DNA of 64,000 nt from Ilyobacter polytropus DSM 2926 (GTDB lineage: Bacteria; Fusobacteriota; Fusobacteriia; Fusobacteriales; Fusobacteriaceae): the NCBI RefSeq assembly GCF_000165505.1, contig NC_014632.1, positions 682,001-746,000 on the forward strand, read 5' to 3'. Shown here in pieces: positions 48,264 through 55,216 of this stretch. The position numbers and the translations under genes were made by a program. Within the stretch, counting starts at the first letter, position 1; each line of letters opens with the position of its first letter. The notes under the pieces were generated by a model, which was given only the letters and a program-made list of their open reading frames with translations, was not told the origin of the DNA and ran no database searches.

Positions 48264-48893
48264 ATGCAAGAAAATAAGGTCAACAATGAATTTAAATTTT
48301 CTGATACTGATATAGAAGAAAAGATAGAGCTTGAACCCTTTGAAACTATATACCACTACGATCTGAGATTCTCCTTTGGACTCATGACCAAGGGGAAGCT
48401 TCTTTTGGTCTATGAAAATGAAAAGGGAAGAAGGGTGCCTTTGAAGACTCTCACAAAAAAGGAAACTATTCTAGGTGGATATGCCTATCTTTTGGAGGGG
48501 AAGGCCATTGACAATCTATATTATATCGCTATAGAAAAAACTGAAATCCTTAAAGTTTCACCTGAAAGAAGCAGGGAACTTCTTTTAGACAGAGATTTTC
48601 TTTTTAGGTGTTTAAAAAACGCCAAGATGGATTCCTTATCGTTGATAGAAGAACTGGTATATCGTCTAGATAAAAATATTGAAAAATTTCTTGCTTATGT
48701 CCTCCTTAACTATTCTGAAAATGGAAAGATGAGAATAAAAAATTTTTCACTATTTTCTGAGTTTATAAAGTGTAGTAGAAGCAACTTTTATTTGGCTTTA
48801 GGAAAGTTAGTTGACAGGGGAATCGTAGAAAGGGATGGTAGAGTTATCACCATAGTGGATTGGGAAGAATTAAAAAAATTTGCTGAAATATAA
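48264..48893 (+). CDS. Crp/Fnr family transcriptional regulator
   Basis: A 209-residue regulator: an N-terminal cyclic-nucleotide-binding-like beta barrel (about residues 20-115), a long dimer helix, and a C-terminal winged helix with SLFSEFIKCSRSNFYLALGKLVDRGIVER as recognition region. No Fnr-type cysteine cluster is visible, so it is not an oxygen-sensing Fnr. It resembles YeiL-like members. It faces the minus-strand operon with the reductive-dehalogenase-like gene. In Desulfitobacterium, CprK of the same family controls dehalogenase genes in response to halogenated phenols, so a similar role is possible. Confidence 0.85.
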   Translation: MQENKVNNEFKFSDTDIEEKIELEPFETIYHYDLRFSFGLMTKGKLLLVYENEKGRRVPLKTLTKKETILGGYAYLLEGKAIDNLYYIAIEKTEILKVSPERSRELLLDRDFLFRCLKNAKMDSLSLIEELVYRLDKNIEKFLAYVLLNYSENGKMRIKNFSLFSEFIKCSRSNFYLALGKLVDRGIVERDGRVITIVDWEELKKFAEI

Positions 48894-48916
48894 AAAGAGC
48901 TCCATTATGGAACTCT
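48892..48916 (-). terminator. Terminator of the minus-strand operon
   Basis: On the minus strand AGAGTTCCA-TAA-TGGAGCTCT is followed by T5. It lies 3 bases beyond the stop of the pseudogene. Confidence 0.75.
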
Positions 48917-48918
48917 AG

Positions 48919-49200
48919 TTAATAGTTAGGACTCTGAATTATATAATCTTTTTGAGAAACCAAAAAGTCCTTTATAAAAAAGATTAAAGCCCCTGCAAAA
49001 AATATAAAAAGGATAACCAACTAAAGAATAACTTCATAGTATCCTACCATTGAAAGCTTTGACACCCCTAAAAAATTACCACTGTTTGCATGTGCCATAG
49101 CAGCAGCAGAAGTGTGGAAGGTGAGTGAGACCCCTGTAACTCCAAGAGCCAGACCACAGTAACTTATGTCTGTTTTTTTTTAATCCAAGGGATACCTCCC
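48919..49200 (-). pseudogene. Decayed integral membrane protein gene
   Basis: On the minus strand an open frame of about 84 codons, broken by an in-frame TAG at 49021-49023, reads as two membrane-like pieces: DISYCGLALGVTGVSLTFHT with SAAAMAHANSGNFLG, and, after the TAG, LVILFIFFAGALIFF and IKDFLVSQKDY. At its 5' side an A9 tract (49173-49181) shifts the frame; a GGGAGG site lies at about 49195. The stop is right at the operon terminator. It looks like the remains of the last gene of the operon. I cannot name the family. Confidence 0.55.
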
Positions 49201-49212
49201 AAAAATTTGCTT

Positions 49213-49773
49213 TTATTTTATAAAATTAAAATAATCGTTTTTTCTTTCAGGATAATTAAATACCTTTGCATTGGGATAACCAACTGCTATTGCGTGATGC
49301 AGAGTGTGACCTTCTAGAATTTCCAGATATTTTATAAATTCTTCTTTTTCAGGACCTCTGAATATCCCAAATATAAATGCACTCCAGCAGGTACCAAGCC
49401 CCATAGACTCAGCTTGAAGTAAGATGTTTTCAGTGGCTGCTGATATATCCTCTAGCGGAGTAATGGCATCATTCTTATGAGAAACAATTATTACGGTGGG
49501 AGCCTTATGAAAAATATTAAAATCAGGATTATTTGCCATTTTACGCATTTTTTCTTTTTCTGCGTCTTTTGCTGTATATTTCGATCTGTCACTCATCTTT
49601 TTAATGAGTTCTTTATTCTGAACCACAGTGAATTGCCAAGGTTGCTTATTATGGCCGCTTGGAGCCCAAGCACCTGCTTCTAATAAGGCCATAATTTCAT
49701 CTTTTTTGACTTGTTCCTCTTTGTATGACCTTGTGCTTCTTCTGTTTTTTATTACTTCTAGTATTTTATTCAC
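49213..49773 (-). CDS. Nitroreductase family protein (FMN-dependent)
   Basis: A 186-residue nitroreductase-fold flavoprotein. RRSTRSYKEEQ and APSGHNKQPWQF are the FMN-binding segments; ISAATENILLQAESMGLGTCW is the central helix. It is the fourth gene of the minus-strand operon, 37 bases after the flavoprotein gene. A role beside a reductive-dehalogenase-like enzyme could be reduction of a nitro-, azo- or halo-aromatic; this is inference. Start ATG 49773 with GGGGGAA upstream. Confidence 0.9.
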   Translation of the reverse strand: MNKILEVIKNRRSTRSYKEEQVKKDEIMALLEAGAWAPSGHNKQPWQFTVVQNKELIKKMSDRSKYTAKDAEKEKMRKMANNPDFNIFHKAPTVIIVSHKNDAITPLEDISAATENILLQAESMGLGTCWSAFIFGIFRGPEKEEFIKYLEILEGHTLHHAIAVGYPNAKVFNYPERKNDYFNFIK

Positions 49774-49810
49774 AGTAATTCCCCCATTTCATAAATATAC
49801 TTATTAAGCC

Positions 49811-51742
49811 TTATTGCTTACTGTTTCTGTCGCATCTCATACATCTTGTAGCTTCTCTTAAAGCTTCTTCTCTTGTATAAACTACTTTTATATTTTCAAA
49901 GTTTTTACATCTGTATGTTGATTCTGTTTCTTTTTCTTCCTGTTTGGGAATATTCCATGTAGTCAGATCAAGCTGTTTTTCAGGAATTTCAATCTCATCT
50001 CCTACATAAATTCCCTGGCCACCCAAAGCCTTATCAATACTAATTGCTACTTTTTTAGCTTCTGCTATGGCACTGATGGCAATTTTAGAGTATCCCCCCA
50101 TATCTCCGGCTACATAGACGTCTTCTGCTGTTGTTTTGTAAGTATTTTTATCAAATGATATCCATCTGTCAGAACCGATCTCTATATCACAATCTAGATA
50201 GCTGTAGTCTGCTCTTTGACCTATTGCCATTACCACTAACTCAGAATCAATTTTAATAGTTTTTTCTTCATCAAACTTCGGGCTGAACCTGTACTGACTA
50301 TCCATTGTGGATATGCATTTCTTGAGTTCAATTTTCTTTAAAGAATCTTTTTCTTCAAGATACTTGTTTATGGTATAACCATTTAAAAAATTAATCCTCT
50401 CTTCGGCTGCTCCATGTTTCTCTTCATGAGAGGCAGGCATACCATCATACTCTTCAAGTGAAACAACTGTCACATCAGATCCGCATCTCATAATGCTTCT
50501 GGCAGCATCCATGGCGACATCTCCACCACCGATAACTGTTACTTTTTTAGAGAAGTTTCTCTTTCCTTGAAGCTTTATCTCTTTTAGAATATCCACTGCA
50601 CTTACGATATATTCTTTATCAGGGCCCACTTTTACACCTGTCATCAAACCTGTTGCAAGAATAGTTGCATCATTGGCTTTTCTGATTTCACCAAGTTTTA
50701 TATCTTCTCCTACTTTTACTCCTGTTTTAATCTTTACACCAAGATTTTCAATAAGTTTTATTTCTCTGTTTATTGCTTCATTATTTATTCTGTACTCTGG
50801 AATCATTATTGCGGGAACTCCACCTGCCGTTTTCTCAGCTTCGTATATAGTTACATTATAACCGCTACGACCAAGGAAATAAGAGGCACTTAGTCCTGCG
50901 GGTCCGCTTCCGATAATAGCTATCTTCTTCCCGTTACTTTCCAGTTTATCTTCTTTGATCTTGTTATCTTCAAGAGCCATAGTTGAAGCGAAGTATTTAA
51001 GTGCTCTTACACCTACAGATTGCTCGAGCTCTCCTCTGCGACATCTCTCTTCACAAGGTCTTGCACAAATCATTCCACAGACATAGGATAAGGGATTGGC
51101 CTGTCTCATTACTGAATAAGCTGTGTCCATATCATCTTCAGCCATATATGCTACATAACCGGGGATATTTACCTCAGCAGGACATGCATTGACACACTGA
51201 GCAGAAGCTAATCTATGGCATACTCCAGGGTGGCATTTTTTCTCTGTAATATGTTCTTCAAAAATTTCTCTAAAGTTATTTAATAAAAACAGTACTGTTT
51301 TTTTCATTTTTCTTTCAGCAGGAATGACAGTTTTCTCTTCCAAAAGTTCTTTTAATATGTCTAGTTCTAAAATTCTTTTGCTTGTTCCGTTGCTTATTTT
51401 CTCAATGATTTCCTCTATCTCTTCTATAGTTTCATTTGTAGTTCTAAGCTCTTTAATAAGATATCTCACACAAAATCTGGCATAATCTACAGGACAGGTA
51501 AGGTCATTTAAAAACAGGATAGTATCTGTATCGATGTTTTTAGTATAGTCACTTAGAGGATTTTCAATATCTTTTAAAAGTACAATTTCACCGAAAGGTC
51601 CACCTATTTGAACCATTGACAGTCTTCCGTTGTTCCAGAGGCCTCCTGCCAATTTAGTAAAAATATCTATCAATGATCGATTTTCATCTATATTATATGT
51701 TCCTGGATTATTTATTTTGCCGCATAAAATGAATTTCTTCAT
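49811..51742 (-). CDS. Fused NuoF-like/GltD-type NAD(P)H flavoprotein
   Basis: A 643-residue oxidoreductase. Residues 1-100 resemble the SLBB part of NuoF (GKINNPGTYNID, VQIGGPFGEIVLL). About 100-175 is a degenerate NuoF tail without the CxxCxxC cluster. From about 175 it is GltD-like: CVNACPAEVNIPGY and CARPCEERCRRGE (two [4Fe-4S] sites), FAD motif IIGSGPAGLSASYFLG, NAD(P) motif VIGGGDVAMDAARS and VAGDMGG. C-terminal CMRCD adds a cysteine pair. It should pass electrons from NAD(P)H via FAD and FeS clusters to a partner. The partner is probably the RdhA-like enzyme whose gene ends two bases upstream. It is similar in layout to SfrB-type subunits. Confidence 0.82.
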   Translation of the reverse strand: MKKFILCGKINNPGTYNIDENRSLIDIFTKLAGGLWNNGRLSMVQIGGPFGEIVLLKDIENPLSDYTKNIDTDTILFLNDLTCPVDYARFCVRYLIKELRTTNETIEEIEEIIEKISNGTSKRILELDILKELLEEKTVIPAERKMKKTVLFLLNNFREIFEEHITEKKCHPGVCHRLASAQCVNACPAEVNIPGYVAYMAEDDMDTAYSVMRQANPLSYVCGMICARPCEERCRRGELEQSVGVRALKYFASTMALEDNKIKEDKLESNGKKIAIIGSGPAGLSASYFLGRSGYNVTIYEAEKTAGGVPAIMIPEYRINNEAINREIKLIENLGVKIKTGVKVGEDIKLGEIRKANDATILATGLMTGVKVGPDKEYIVSAVDILKEIKLQGKRNFSKKVTVIGGGDVAMDAARSIMRCGSDVTVVSLEEYDGMPASHEEKHGAAEERINFLNGYTINKYLEEKDSLKKIELKKCISTMDSQYRFSPKFDEEKTIKIDSELVVMAIGQRADYSYLDCDIEIGSDRWISFDKNTYKTTAEDVYVAGDMGGYSKIAISAIAEAKKVAISIDKALGGQGIYVGDEIEIPEKQLDLTTWNIPKQEEKETESTYRCKNFENIKVVYTREEALREATRCMRCDRNSKQ

Positions 51743-51744
51743 TA

Positions 51745-52926
51745 CTATTCTCCTCCTCTGATTTTATCTTTATCTATAATATCAGTCATAACGTTATACA
51801 TGTTGTATTCAGGTAAACTTTGATTTACAATTTTATCATATCCGAATCTGCTTAACGGACAAACTTTGAGACAGTGTCCGCAGTATCTGTTTGTTGCCAT
51901 AGACCAGCCACAGCTTTTTCTAACTGATCTTCTTTTAAATTGACCAAACCACTCATGTTCATCTTTGGGAATGCTGGCCACAGGACAGGTCTTATAGCAC
52001 ATTCTGCATCTTGCACAAAACTCCTCAAAATTCATGTCTTCTGTTGCATGGTCTAGCTCAATGTCAGCATCAATGGTTACACAGCATAGTCTTAATCTTG
52101 TTCCATACTCTTTGGTAATCAGCAAGCCATGAGTGGAATACATTCCAAGACCGGCATTCACTGCATGAGGGGGAAAGTTTATTTCATCACCTAATGCTGG
52201 AGTTGAAAGAGCCTTATATCCCTTACTTCTAATAAAATCGGCTACTTTATTTGCAGCATCTCCAGCTTCGGCATATATATGCCAATCAAATATCTTTCCA
52301 GTATCTTTTGTAGGATAAGGTATTTCTTCTATCTGATCCGCCTCCATCTCCATACCCAATACAAGCATAGTGTCATATGGGAAAGAGTCGTCAAAGCCCT
52401 CATTGATATACCTTCTGTCAACTAAGGTAAAGGCTCCAATCATTCCCAGGCTCTTTACATACTCTAAGATATTATCTTTAAGCTGCTTTAAGTCTTTCAA
52501 AGGTTTAACTTTACCGGCTTCTATATCTGCTTCTAGTTTTTTATTAAATTCTGGATTTTGTTTTGATAGAGCAATACCCTTCATTACCCTCTGTGCATCT
52601 TTTATGAACACGTCTCTGATTTTAGGTGTCATACCATCATCTTCAACATACTTTGCAATGTTTTTGATGTAGTCTGAATCTATGTCTATAGAGTCTCCTT
52701 TACCATCCCCTGGATGTATAGAAGTATAGTGATCAAATAACTCTCCATCTATTTTTACATATGGGTTATTATCAGTCAGTTCTTTTCCTAAGTTATCTTT
52801 AGTGTAGGTATAAAAAAATTCTTTGTCATGCCTTAAAATTCCTTTTTCACTCACTTTAAATGGAGCTCTCTTACTAACTTTTGGAACATCTAAATCGAAA
52901 GTGTTATTAAATCCGTTGTCTATCAC
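51745..52926 (-). CDS. Reductive-dehalogenase-like cobalamin/FeS protein
   Basis: A 393-residue protein without Tat or Sec signal, so cytoplasmic. Residues 135-290 resemble the cobalamin domain of reductive dehalogenases and QueG: DRRYINEGF, the helix IRSKGYKAL, and INFPPHAVNAGLGMYS followed by ITKEYGTRLRLCCVTID. Two [4Fe-4S] sites follow: CARCRMCYKTCP and CGHCLKVCP with a lone C at CGWSM. The PPHAVNAGLG form is nearer RdhA than QueG. The N-terminal 130 residues (VPKVSKRAPFKVSEKG and on) are unusual. Known cytoplasmic relatives (NpRdhA, BhbA) are self-sufficient with fused reductase; here the electron donor is a separate gene two bases downstream. It may instead reduce another cobalamin substrate. 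Confidence 0.78.
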   Translation of the reverse strand: MIDNGFNNTFDLDVPKVSKRAPFKVSEKGILRHDKEFFYTYTKDNLGKELTDNNPYVKIDGELFDHYTSIHPGDGKGDSIDIDSDYIKNIAKYVEDDGMTPKIRDVFIKDAQRVMKGIALSKQNPEFNKKLEADIEAGKVKPLKDLKQLKDNILEYVKSLGMIGAFTLVDRRYINEGFDDSFPYDTMLVLGMEMEADQIEEIPYPTKDTGKIFDWHIYAEAGDAANKVADFIRSKGYKALSTPALGDEINFPPHAVNAGLGMYSTHGLLITKEYGTRLRLCCVTIDADIELDHATEDMNFEEFCARCRMCYKTCPVASIPKDEHEWFGQFKRRSVRKSCGWSMATNRYCGHCLKVCPLSRFGYDKIVNQSLPEYNMYNVMTDIIDKDKIRGGE

Positions 52927-53006
52927 TACTATCCCCTCCTTAAATTATTCTCAGTAGTTCTACAGAGTTTTGAAAAAATACCTGAAAGTTTTACTAACAG
53001 GGTTTT

Positions 53007-53699
53007 TTAGTTGCCGATTTTCTTAAGGAATATTCCGATCTTCCCATATGACAGTGTATCTTTTACCGGACAGCTGCTTATACACTCGAAACAGTTAATA
53101 CACTGGGGATTTCTGATGCTATCCTTATCTGACACAGCAATGTTCATAGGACATACTCTGTTGCATTTTTTACAGTTTACACAACTTTTTTTATTTCTCT
53201 TCACTGAGAAAAATTTAGTCAAGCTTGCAATCCCGAACTTGGTTCCGTCTATGCAAAGATAATTGCAGAATGGCCTTTCAAATACAGTTGAAACAATTAG
53301 AAAACCAGCCATTATAATTAATGATGCTGAGATGACAACACCTGAAAAATTACTTACTGTAGAGGTGAATGTTTTATTGCCGTTTACAGTTTCATAGATA
53401 CCTACCCCTATACCTGCAACTAAGAGTGCCATAACGATATATCTTGAAAATATCAGATATTTTTGAATATTTTGTGGCATCTTATATTTTTTTGTAAAAA
53501 TCCTGTCCCCTATGGCACCAAAAAATTCCTGAAGGGCTCCGTATGGACATACCCATCCGCAGAAAAAATTACCCACTACCAATGAAAAAATAAGCAGTAG
53601 TGGAAATACAGCCTTAAATTTCATAAATAAACCCGCTACTAACAATCCAATAAAAAAAAGTTGAACACTGTTTCTAATTAATTGAATTTTTTTGTTCAA
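53007..53699 (-). CDS. NapH/RdhC-like membrane polyferredoxin
   Basis: A 230-residue inner-membrane iron-sulfur protein. About four hydrophobic segments surround the signature CGWVCPYGALQEFFG, the CxxxCP motif of the NapH/NosR/RdhC/YccM family. The C-terminal part has [4Fe-4S] sites CVNCKKCNRVCP and CINCFECISSCP. In cpr and rdh loci such proteins (CprC/RdhC) sit beside the dehalogenase. Start TTG 53699 chosen since AGAGGTGAG is 5 bases upstream; GTG 53708 and TTG 53729 are alternatives. First gene of the operon, 80 bases before the RdhA-like gene. Confidence 0.82.
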   Translation of the reverse strand: MNKKIQLIRNSVQLFFIGLLVAGLFMKFKAVFPLLLIFSLVVGNFFCGWVCPYGALQEFFGAIGDRIFTKKYKMPQNIQKYLIFSRYIVMALLVAGIGVGIYETVNGNKTFTSTVSNFSGVVISASLIIMAGFLIVSTVFERPFCNYLCIDGTKFGIASLTKFFSVKRNKKSCVNCKKCNRVCPMNIAVSDKDSIRNPQCINCFECISSCPVKDTLSYGKIGIFLKKIGN

Positions 53700-53749
53700 A
53701 TGGCTCACCTCTATACAAGAATGTAACAAAAGACCTCTTGGCTTATGTT

Positions 53750-53767
53750 ATGTTAAAATAATAACAT
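53750..53767. promoter_or_regulatory. Palindromic operator candidate ATGTTA-N6-TAACAT
   Basis: Perfect 6-6-6 palindrome centred 59 bases upstream of the polyferredoxin start codon. It shares its half sites TGTTA/TAACA and spacing with 23872-23887. Fits Rex or Crp/Fnr geometry. Confidence 0.6.
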
Positions 53768-53943
53768 TTTAATAGAGATACTTCTGTCCTGTTTAGGACA
53801 CTTTTTTAATGAAAATAAATTTTAAATAAGTTGGTGGCTTTTTTTAAATGATAATTTGATTTTAGATACTCGCAATTATTTTAATTCAATTATTTTTTTT
53901 ATTTTTATGGTTTTTTTAATCTTGTAAAATCACAATTTACACC

Positions 53944-54043: not shown

Positions 54044-55216
54044 ATGCAAAGATTTACAATACCAAGAGATCTATATTTCGGAGAGGACTCGCTATCTCAT
54101 TTAAAAAATATCAATGGAACTAAGGCTCTTATCGTTATCGGTTCAGAGAGATTAATAAACGATGGAACAGTACCTAGTGCTGTTGAATATTTAAAAGAAG
54201 CTGGAATAGAAAGTGAACTGTTCGTAGGAATAGAAAATGACCCTTGAGTAGCTACTGTTATGAAAGGTGTAGAAGCTATGAATAAATTTAAGCCCGATAC
54301 AATAATAGGAATAGGTGGAGGATCACCGATAGATGCGGCCAAAGCTATGTGGATCTTCTATGAGCACCCAACATTCACATTTGAAGAAGCTGCAAAACCA
54401 TTTAACCTACCAGAATTAAGAAACAAGGCTAAATTTATAGCAGTTCCGACAACAAGTGGTACCGCTACAGAAGTTACATCATTTGCTGTAATCACAGACA
54501 ATGAAACTAATATCAAATATCCAATCGCAGACTACAACATCACTCCAGATGTAGCTATTGTAGATACAAACTTAGTACAAACAATGCCTAAGGTATTAGT
54601 AGCAAACACAGGAATGGATGCATTAACTCATGCACTAGAAGCATATGTTTCAAAGGCAAGAAATCCATTTACAGATGCACTAGCGATGAAATCTATCGAG
54701 ATGATCTCAGAGACTTTAATCAACTCTTATAACGGTGAAGACTCTGCGAGAAAAGATATGCATATCGCACAAAACTTAGCAGGAATGGCATTCTCAAATG
54801 CAATCCTTGGAATAGTTCATTCAATGGCTCATAAGACAGGAAAAGTTTTAAATATTGATCATGGATTAGCCAATGCAATCTACCTTTCATATGCTGTCGA
54901 ATTCAATGCAAAAGATGAAATCGGAAAAGCACAATATGCTCATGCCGCTAAAACAATAGGTTTAGCCGGAAATAACGAAACTGAATTAGTTGAATCATTA
55001 GTAAACTTAATTAAAGAATTAAGAGAACAAATGGATATGCCTCATTCATTAAAAGAATTTGGAGTAGAAGAGGAGTTCTTCTTGGCTAACTTAGATGAGA
55101 TCGCAAGAACATCTGTAGGAGACCCATGTACAGGGACAAATCCAAGAGATATATCTGTAGAAGAGATGAAAAACTTATTTAAAGCTGTTTATTACGGTGA
55201 AAAAGTGACATTTTAA
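54044..55216 (+). CDS. Iron-containing alcohol dehydrogenase with in-frame UGA at codon 68
   Basis: A 390-codon Fe-ADH (NAD-dependent, group III), which interconverts aldehydes and alcohols. N-terminus PRDLYFGEDSLSHL, NAD loop IGIGGGSPIDAAKA, metal ligands in DALTHALEAYVS, GIVHSMAHKTG and DHGLANAI. Codon 68 (54245-54247) is TGA within ENDP-x-VATVMKGVEA. Related enzymes usually have serine or threonine there. Family sequence continues directly after it, so the UGA is within, not at the end of, the gene. It may be selenocysteine, readthrough or a point mutation (TCA to TGA). A SECIS hairpin is not convincing. AGGAGG precedes ATG 54044. Confidence 0.85.

Follow-up and report, generated by a model that had tools for sequence, protein, structure and literature searches.

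A putative NADH-driven reductive dehalogenase and its flavoprotein partner in the fermenter Ilyobacter polytropus

Ilyobacter polytropus DSM 2926, a member of the Fusobacteriaceae, lives by fermentation under strictly anaerobic conditions; its chromosome I and genome have been published (PMC3035301). The window analysed here is a 64,000-nucleotide stretch (positions 682,001 to 746,000) of contig NC_014632.1, which has 2,046,464 bases in a genome of 3,132,314 bases in three contigs. Two adjacent genes in this window encode an RdhA-like protein (RDH) and a flavoprotein (FLV), which together probably constitute a cytosolic two-component reductive dehalogenase driven by NADH (reduced nicotinamide adenine dinucleotide), with bromophenols as the likeliest substrates. 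This reading draws on sequence comparisons and on a structural model of RDH. The two genes are:

51745..52926, minus strand: RDH, putative RdhA-like corrinoid/[4Fe-4S] enzyme of 393 amino acids with a GTG start, Tyr218/Arg279 and eight Fe-S cysteines (profiles, PDB matches and alignment)
49811..51742, minus strand: FLV, flavoprotein of 643 amino acids with flavin adenine dinucleotide (FAD) and dinucleotide folds (family and structure matches)

A ribosome-binding site (aaggagggg) can be read for RDH, and FLV starts 2 bp past the RDH stop. The original prediction placed both genes in a locus of five named genes. All five were confirmed as long open reading frames (ORFs) at or adjoining the predicted positions, with identities backed by family matches. 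RDH is not a chance ORF, as its ratio of nonsynonymous to synonymous change (pN/pS) against the sister species (G042) is 0.12 and it has relatives in four phyla.

Sequence and predicted structure of RDH

RDH has two [4Fe-4S] motifs in its C-terminal half (C304-x2-C-x2-C-x3-CP and C339...C349-x2-C-x3-CP), and a sequence scan found neither a twin-arginine motif nor an N-terminal hydrophobic segment, which bears out the predicted pairing of two such sites with no twin-arginine translocation (Tat) signal. Across 49 aligned RdhA-type proteins all eight Fe-S cysteines are invariant, and Tyr218 is nearly so. Tyr218 aligns with Y426 of NpRdhA and the PceA tyrosine, and Arg279 with K488 of NpRdhA and the PceA arginine, meaning that the active-site tyrosine and basic residue of NpRdhA, which had been proposed as a check, are kept. 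Y426 and K488 have been put forward as the catalytic dyad of NpRdhA (PMC7565698). Within the RDH clade described below, the tyrosine is invariant and position 279 is lysine or arginine in all clade rows shown.

The best PDB sequence matches of RDH are respiratory reductive dehalogenases and NpRdhA. An AlphaFold model was built from the 49-protein alignment and has a mean predicted local distance difference test (pLDDT) score of 71, with most of the core at 75-98 (an earlier run on 10 sequences reached a pLDDT of 47 and was not used). When this model was searched against the PDB, the 36 best matches were all reductive dehalogenases (E 3.7e-13 to 7e-10, template modelling score about 0.5), with PceA of Sulfurospirillum multivorans at the top, in agreement with the original prediction. 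Identity to RdhAs in these fold matches was 16-20%. QueG came second (3e-6), with MMACHC after it. The Fe-S motifs, the Tyr/Arg pair and the predicted fold support the assignment of RDH to the RdhA superfamily (class III cobalamin reductases), and RDH is predicted to bind a corrinoid. RDH shares the Tyr/Arg pair and two [4Fe-4S] clusters with PceA and other respiratory RdhAs, but unlike them it has no Tat signal, no RdhB anchor and no RdhC.

QueG belongs to the same superfamily, with the fold and class III corrinoid/Fe-S architecture of RDH, and a profile search of the I. polytropus genome found no QueG above cut-off. RDH could thus be viewed as a replacement epoxyqueuosine reductase, but we regard this as extremely improbable. 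The genome uses QueH (238 bits) and lacks a QueG over the cut-off, so queuosine does not require RDH. RDH reaches only 38.4 and 34 bits with the QueG profile TIGR00276 (cut-off 200), compared with 69.9 bits with the reductive dehalogenase profile TIGR02486, QueG is only second in the fold search, and Propionigenium maris has four copies of RDH. The profile comparison sides with the original prediction of an RdhA-like protein rather than QueG.

Distribution of the RDH clade and its pairing with FLV

Relatives of RDH were sought in 98 genomes of the phylum, in a genome collection, in 391 genomes from the class to which Oceanirhabdus belongs and in 296 from the phylum of a Spirochaetia metagenome-assembled genome (MAG). 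A scan of genome contigs with the single RDH protein returned no relatives, whereas an alignment query recovered them. The clade is rare and compact, with 15 loci across Fusobacteriota, Clostridia, Spirochaetota and Myxococcota. There is one locus in I. polytropus, one in its sister species and four in P. maris DSM 9537; elsewhere in the Fusobacteriaceae the clade occurs in four genomes of one genus, a Psychrilyobacter MAG among them. The other loci are from Tepidibacter formicigenes, Oceanirhabdus seepicola and one MAG each of Clostridia, Spirochaetia and Myxococcota. With the group profile, members reach 485-654 bits and the best non-member 188. They are monophyletic (support 100/99) and stand apart from NpRdhA/BhbA and PceA-like sequences in a midpoint-rooted tree that left out CprA and Dehalococcoides. 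A plasmid search yielded ordinary RdhAs only.

The described RdhA subfamilies are respiratory, transmembrane, and catabolic with or without a reductase domain, the catabolic enzymes carrying a vestigial duplicated domain (PMC10463259). The RDH clade fits none of these four, because it lacks Tat signals, RdhB, transmembrane helices, the duplicated domain and a fused reductase. No plausible small ORF with several transmembrane segments, as a candidate RdhB, was found beside 12 clade loci, the three matches being antisense within RDH or FLV. N-terminal transmembrane helices are absent from the clade, its sole hydrophobic stretch (P. maris C5b) preceding the first Met. RDH itself is a single core with neither a duplicated cobalamin domain nor a fused phthalate-dioxygenase-reductase domain. 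NpRdhA, BhbA and JtRdhA resemble RDH in being cytoplasmic, with an RdhA core and a catalytic tyrosine and basic residue, and they resemble the proposed RDH-FLV system in having NAD(P)H as the ultimate donor and ortho-halophenols as substrates (predicted for RDH). In contrast to RDH, they carry the vestigial duplicated cobalamin domain, most have a fused phthalate-dioxygenase-reductase instead of a separate SLBB/NfnB-like partner, and they belong to a separate clade. In its mode of action the RDH clade probably resembles an NAD(P)H-driven catabolic reductive dehalogenase, yet it lies outside that subfamily. Dehalogenase genes of the RDH type were not described for Ilyobacter, Psychrilyobacter or other Fusobacteriota in the literature searched, a body that most subscription journals fell outside.

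A second, different RdhA-type protein with no FLV partner also occurs in Fusobacteriota (L023 3152-4228, in P. maris C21, and L026 408-1466, in G060). Two other Fusobacteriaceae (L008 and L009, genus g5) have short QueG/RdhA-type proteins of 244-259 amino acids.

FLV directly adjoins RDH in all 15 clade loci and is absent from the flanks (within about 1.5 kb) of about 45 other RdhA-type loci. The order is RDH-FLV in most clade loci and FLV-RDH in P. maris C25 and C5a, indicating that the adjacency has outlasted rearrangement. Among 61 genomes of the family, full-length FLV (at least 440 bits) is restricted to the seven genomes with a clade RDH, and its ten loci there match the ten RDH loci one to one. 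The next-best FLV-like match scores 291 bits and lacks the N-terminal part. Adjacency and co-occurrence are strong evidence that RDH and FLV form a functional pair, and the invariant pairing strengthens the earlier suggestion that the flavoprotein is the electron donor. A donor encoded by a separate gene had been called unusual. NpRdhA is not fused to a reductase either (PMC10463259). The I. polytropus system does stand out for the kind of partner it has and for an enzyme that consists of a single, non-duplicated core.

Residues 181-638 of FLV match NfnB/GltD-type flavoproteins (9bov_A, 8oh5_C, 9n5u_A, 4ylf_B and 5jca_L). For residues 2-181 the matches are to the C-terminal SLBB/NuoF region of HydB, HoxF and NuoF, and to the N-terminal region of the [FeFe]-hydrogenase 9rkm. 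FLV differs from both groups in this domain fusion beside an RdhA-like gene, and the HydB cluster motif CGKCxPC (CxxCxxC) has no counterpart in it. The second dinucleotide fold ends in Leu-Glu (E430), invariant in 12 of 12 FLVs, where NADPH-using NfnB/GltD relatives have Arg-Arg. Since Leu-Glu replaces the NADPH-binding Arg-Arg, FLV probably uses NADH. In Psychrilyobacter-group genomes a Glt-symporter-like membrane protein is encoded directly downstream of FLV (L019 1689-2750, Pfam-tested, and L020 5359-6414); it is possibly an importer of an anionic substrate.

Proposed function and substrate

In the mechanism that we propose, the NfnB-like part of FLV would take a hydride from NADH onto its flavin, and the FLV Fe-S clusters would pass single electrons on to the pair of [4Fe-4S] clusters in RDH, which would reduce a base-off corrinoid. 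The halogen would then be removed from the substrate, with Tyr218, tuned by Arg279, donating the proton. We infer the direction of electron flow (FLV to RDH), the preference for NADH and the halogenated nature of the substrate. Rather than supporting membrane-bound organohalide respiration, the system would give a fermenter such as Ilyobacter an NADH sink and a means to detoxify marine organohalides, bromophenols being the most likely.

Bromophenols are our leading substrate guess for three reasons. First, reductive debromination of bromophenols by P. maris isolates was described in 2000 (Watson et al. 2000, cited in PMC6315191), and the P. maris type strain DSM 9537 has four RDH-FLV pairs, which gives substance to the link to this species made in the original prediction. 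Second, the characterised catabolic RdhAs act on ortho-halophenols (PMC10463259). Third, the corrinoid biosynthesis cluster of I. polytropus resembles that of the organohalide-respiring S. multivorans (PMC4585668).

Several observations count against the dehalogenase reading. The TIGR02486 score of RDH lies under the cut-off of 160.35, and PF13486 gave no RDH match at E<=0.1; of the profile checks proposed earlier, the PF13486 match thus failed to appear, while TIGR02486 came out ahead of the QueG profile with both under their cut-offs. These scores indicate that RDH is a divergent branch and not a standard RdhA. Met343 occupies the position of NpRdhA Arg552, which contacts the substrate hydroxyl (PMC7565698). 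Confidence in the RDH model is moderate, and its N-terminal 100 residues are weak. In P. maris, the RdhA-type gene of the other group (C21) could be the debrominase, and the debrominating isolates differ from the sequenced type strain.

Some of these observations would also suit a class III cobalamin reductase of RdhA/QueG-like type that is driven by FLV and acts on a non-halogenated substrate, e.g., an epoxide, an ether or another reducible group. RDH is far from all characterised RdhAs, falls under the curated cut-off and has lost the Arg552 equivalent, and Glt-symporter-like and other non-aromatic genes adjoin some loci. We nevertheless consider a non-halogenated substrate unlikely, given that RDH retains the RdhA tyrosine and basic residue, that reductive dehalogenases are its best structural matches, that dehalogenase-type regulators adjoin the genes and that a species with known debromination has four copies.

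Extending the dehalogenase reading to the whole clade, we see about an even chance that it represents a fifth RdhA subfamily, consisting of single-core cytosolic enzymes of anaerobic fermenters with a dedicated one-protein NADH reductase (NuoF C-terminal/SLBB plus NfnB-like), which have spread by transfer over Fusobacteriota, Clostridia, Spirochaetota and Myxococcota, and which account for debromination in P. maris. Surveys relying on PF13486 or on the TIGR02486 cut-off would overlook this clade. No gene behind the debromination reported in 2000 was found in the literature searched, and among the genes of P. maris DSM 9537, four RDH-FLV pairs and a further RdhA-type gene are now candidates. 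I. polytropus, a sequenced type strain, has a clean single-copy version of the pair. Reconstitution of NpRdhA with its own partners has failed (PMC10463259), and RDH-FLV, if our reading is correct, would fill this gap with a soluble reductive dehalogenase and its matched native redox partner. It would also extend reductive dehalogenation to fermenters of the Fusobacteriota, as an NADH sink and not as respiration.

Polyferredoxin, regulators and other neighbouring genes

The other features of the locus are:

53007..53699, minus strand: NapH-like membrane polyferredoxin, 230 amino acids, with four transmembrane-like segments and two [4Fe-4S] sites
49213..49773, minus strand: nitroreductase-family flavin mononucleotide (FMN) protein, 186 amino acids (family match)
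48264..48893, plus strand: divergent Crp/Fnr-family regulator, 209 amino acids, convergent with the operon
53750..53767, no strand: perfect palindrome ATGTTA-N6-TAACAT that precedes the polyferredoxin start by 51 bp, a possible operator that has no statistical support

The minus-strand genes run from 53699 to 49213 in the order polyferredoxin, RDH, FLV, nitroreductase, and their spacing suggests a single transcript. The polyferredoxin ORF spans 53007-53729, with a better start at a TTG at 53699 preceded by GAGGTGAG. A Crp/Fnr gene had been predicted to face the operon; the gene is present, but it converges on the operon's 3' end, and the promoter is presumably at the opposite end, ahead of the polyferredoxin gene.

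The polyferredoxin gene precedes RDH by 80 bp, and a relative is found some 6 kb away from the pair in P. maris C3, which raises an alternative in which this NapH-like protein hands quinol- or Rnf-derived electrons to RDH in membrane organohalide respiration, with FLV secondary. NapH and RdhC have a membrane Fe-S scaffold in common. The protein matches Fer4_5 and Fer4 alone, with the NapH subfamily as best match, under its cut-off, and no match to the FMN-binding domain that characterises RdhC/CprC; it is thus NapH-type only, contrary to the RdhC-like identity first proposed. In addition, no relative was found beside 12 of the 15 clade loci (two on short contigs), and in G055 it sits on another contig than RDH. 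With Tat signal, RdhB and FMN-binding RdhC also missing, we think membrane respiration highly unlikely.

Known regulators of rdh genes include Crp/Fnr and MarR proteins (CprK and RdhR, respectively), and one or the other type is encoded near 10 of the 15 clade loci. The three P. maris regions that hold the four pairs contain or adjoin seven genes of the Crp/Fnr type. Five Crp helix-turn-helix matches fall within 20.5 kb around the P. maris loci against 0.2 expected (40 in 4.1 Mb), in windows chosen post hoc. MarR genes adjoin the pair in G055 and G059 of the Psychrilyobacter group, Tepidibacter and Oceanirhabdus. The Ilyobacter Crp/Fnr regulator is 17-21% identical to those of P. maris. Alone it gives weak cNMP-domain and Crp helix-turn-helix matches under gathering cut-offs, and a profile of the Ilyobacter and P. 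maris regulators matches CRP structures at 1e-12; on these comparisons the product of 48264-48893 is a Crp/Fnr family member. Weak, partial SmpB-like matches of this gene were taken as chance. The suggested resemblance to CprK and the idea of a dehalobox found no support: no CprK chain is among the PDB matches listed, and the palindrome at 53750-53767 is CRP-spaced with a frequency near chance level.

A second perfect palindrome, TGTCCTGTTTAGGACA, lies upstream of the polyferredoxin at window positions 53785-53800 and was flagged as terminator-like on the plus strand. The palindromes in this upstream region recur in the sister species, where the region is nearly identical and their conservation therefore uninformative. 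P. maris C3 has two near-identical 16-bp palindromes of the TATGACAGCNGTCAYA type (L021 5748-5763 and 6886-6901), the first (TATGACAGCGGTCATA) between divergent Crp genes and the second (TATGACAGCTGTCACA) about 55 bp ahead of the first Met of RDH. An equal number of matches arose in 2 of 200 shuffles. The twin palindromes suggest one regulon, and we predict that the RDH genes are induced by their substrate. There was no Rfam match anywhere in the window, and hence no cobalamin riboswitch.

The nitroreductase has no linkage to RDH outside Ilyobacter, and its better matches are to generic nitroreductases; for both reasons we rejected it as an iodotyrosine-deiodinase-type dehalogenase. Against the sister species it shows 9 nonsynonymous changes and 1 synonymous change, small counts, while its neighbours show purifying patterns. 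An iron-containing alcohol dehydrogenase gene at window positions 54044-55216 (plus strand) is interrupted by an in-frame TGA near position 54245 (ENDP*VATV). In the sister species the frame is intact and the codon reads TCA (Ser), which makes selenocysteine unlikely and a nonsense change or sequencing error the likelier explanation.

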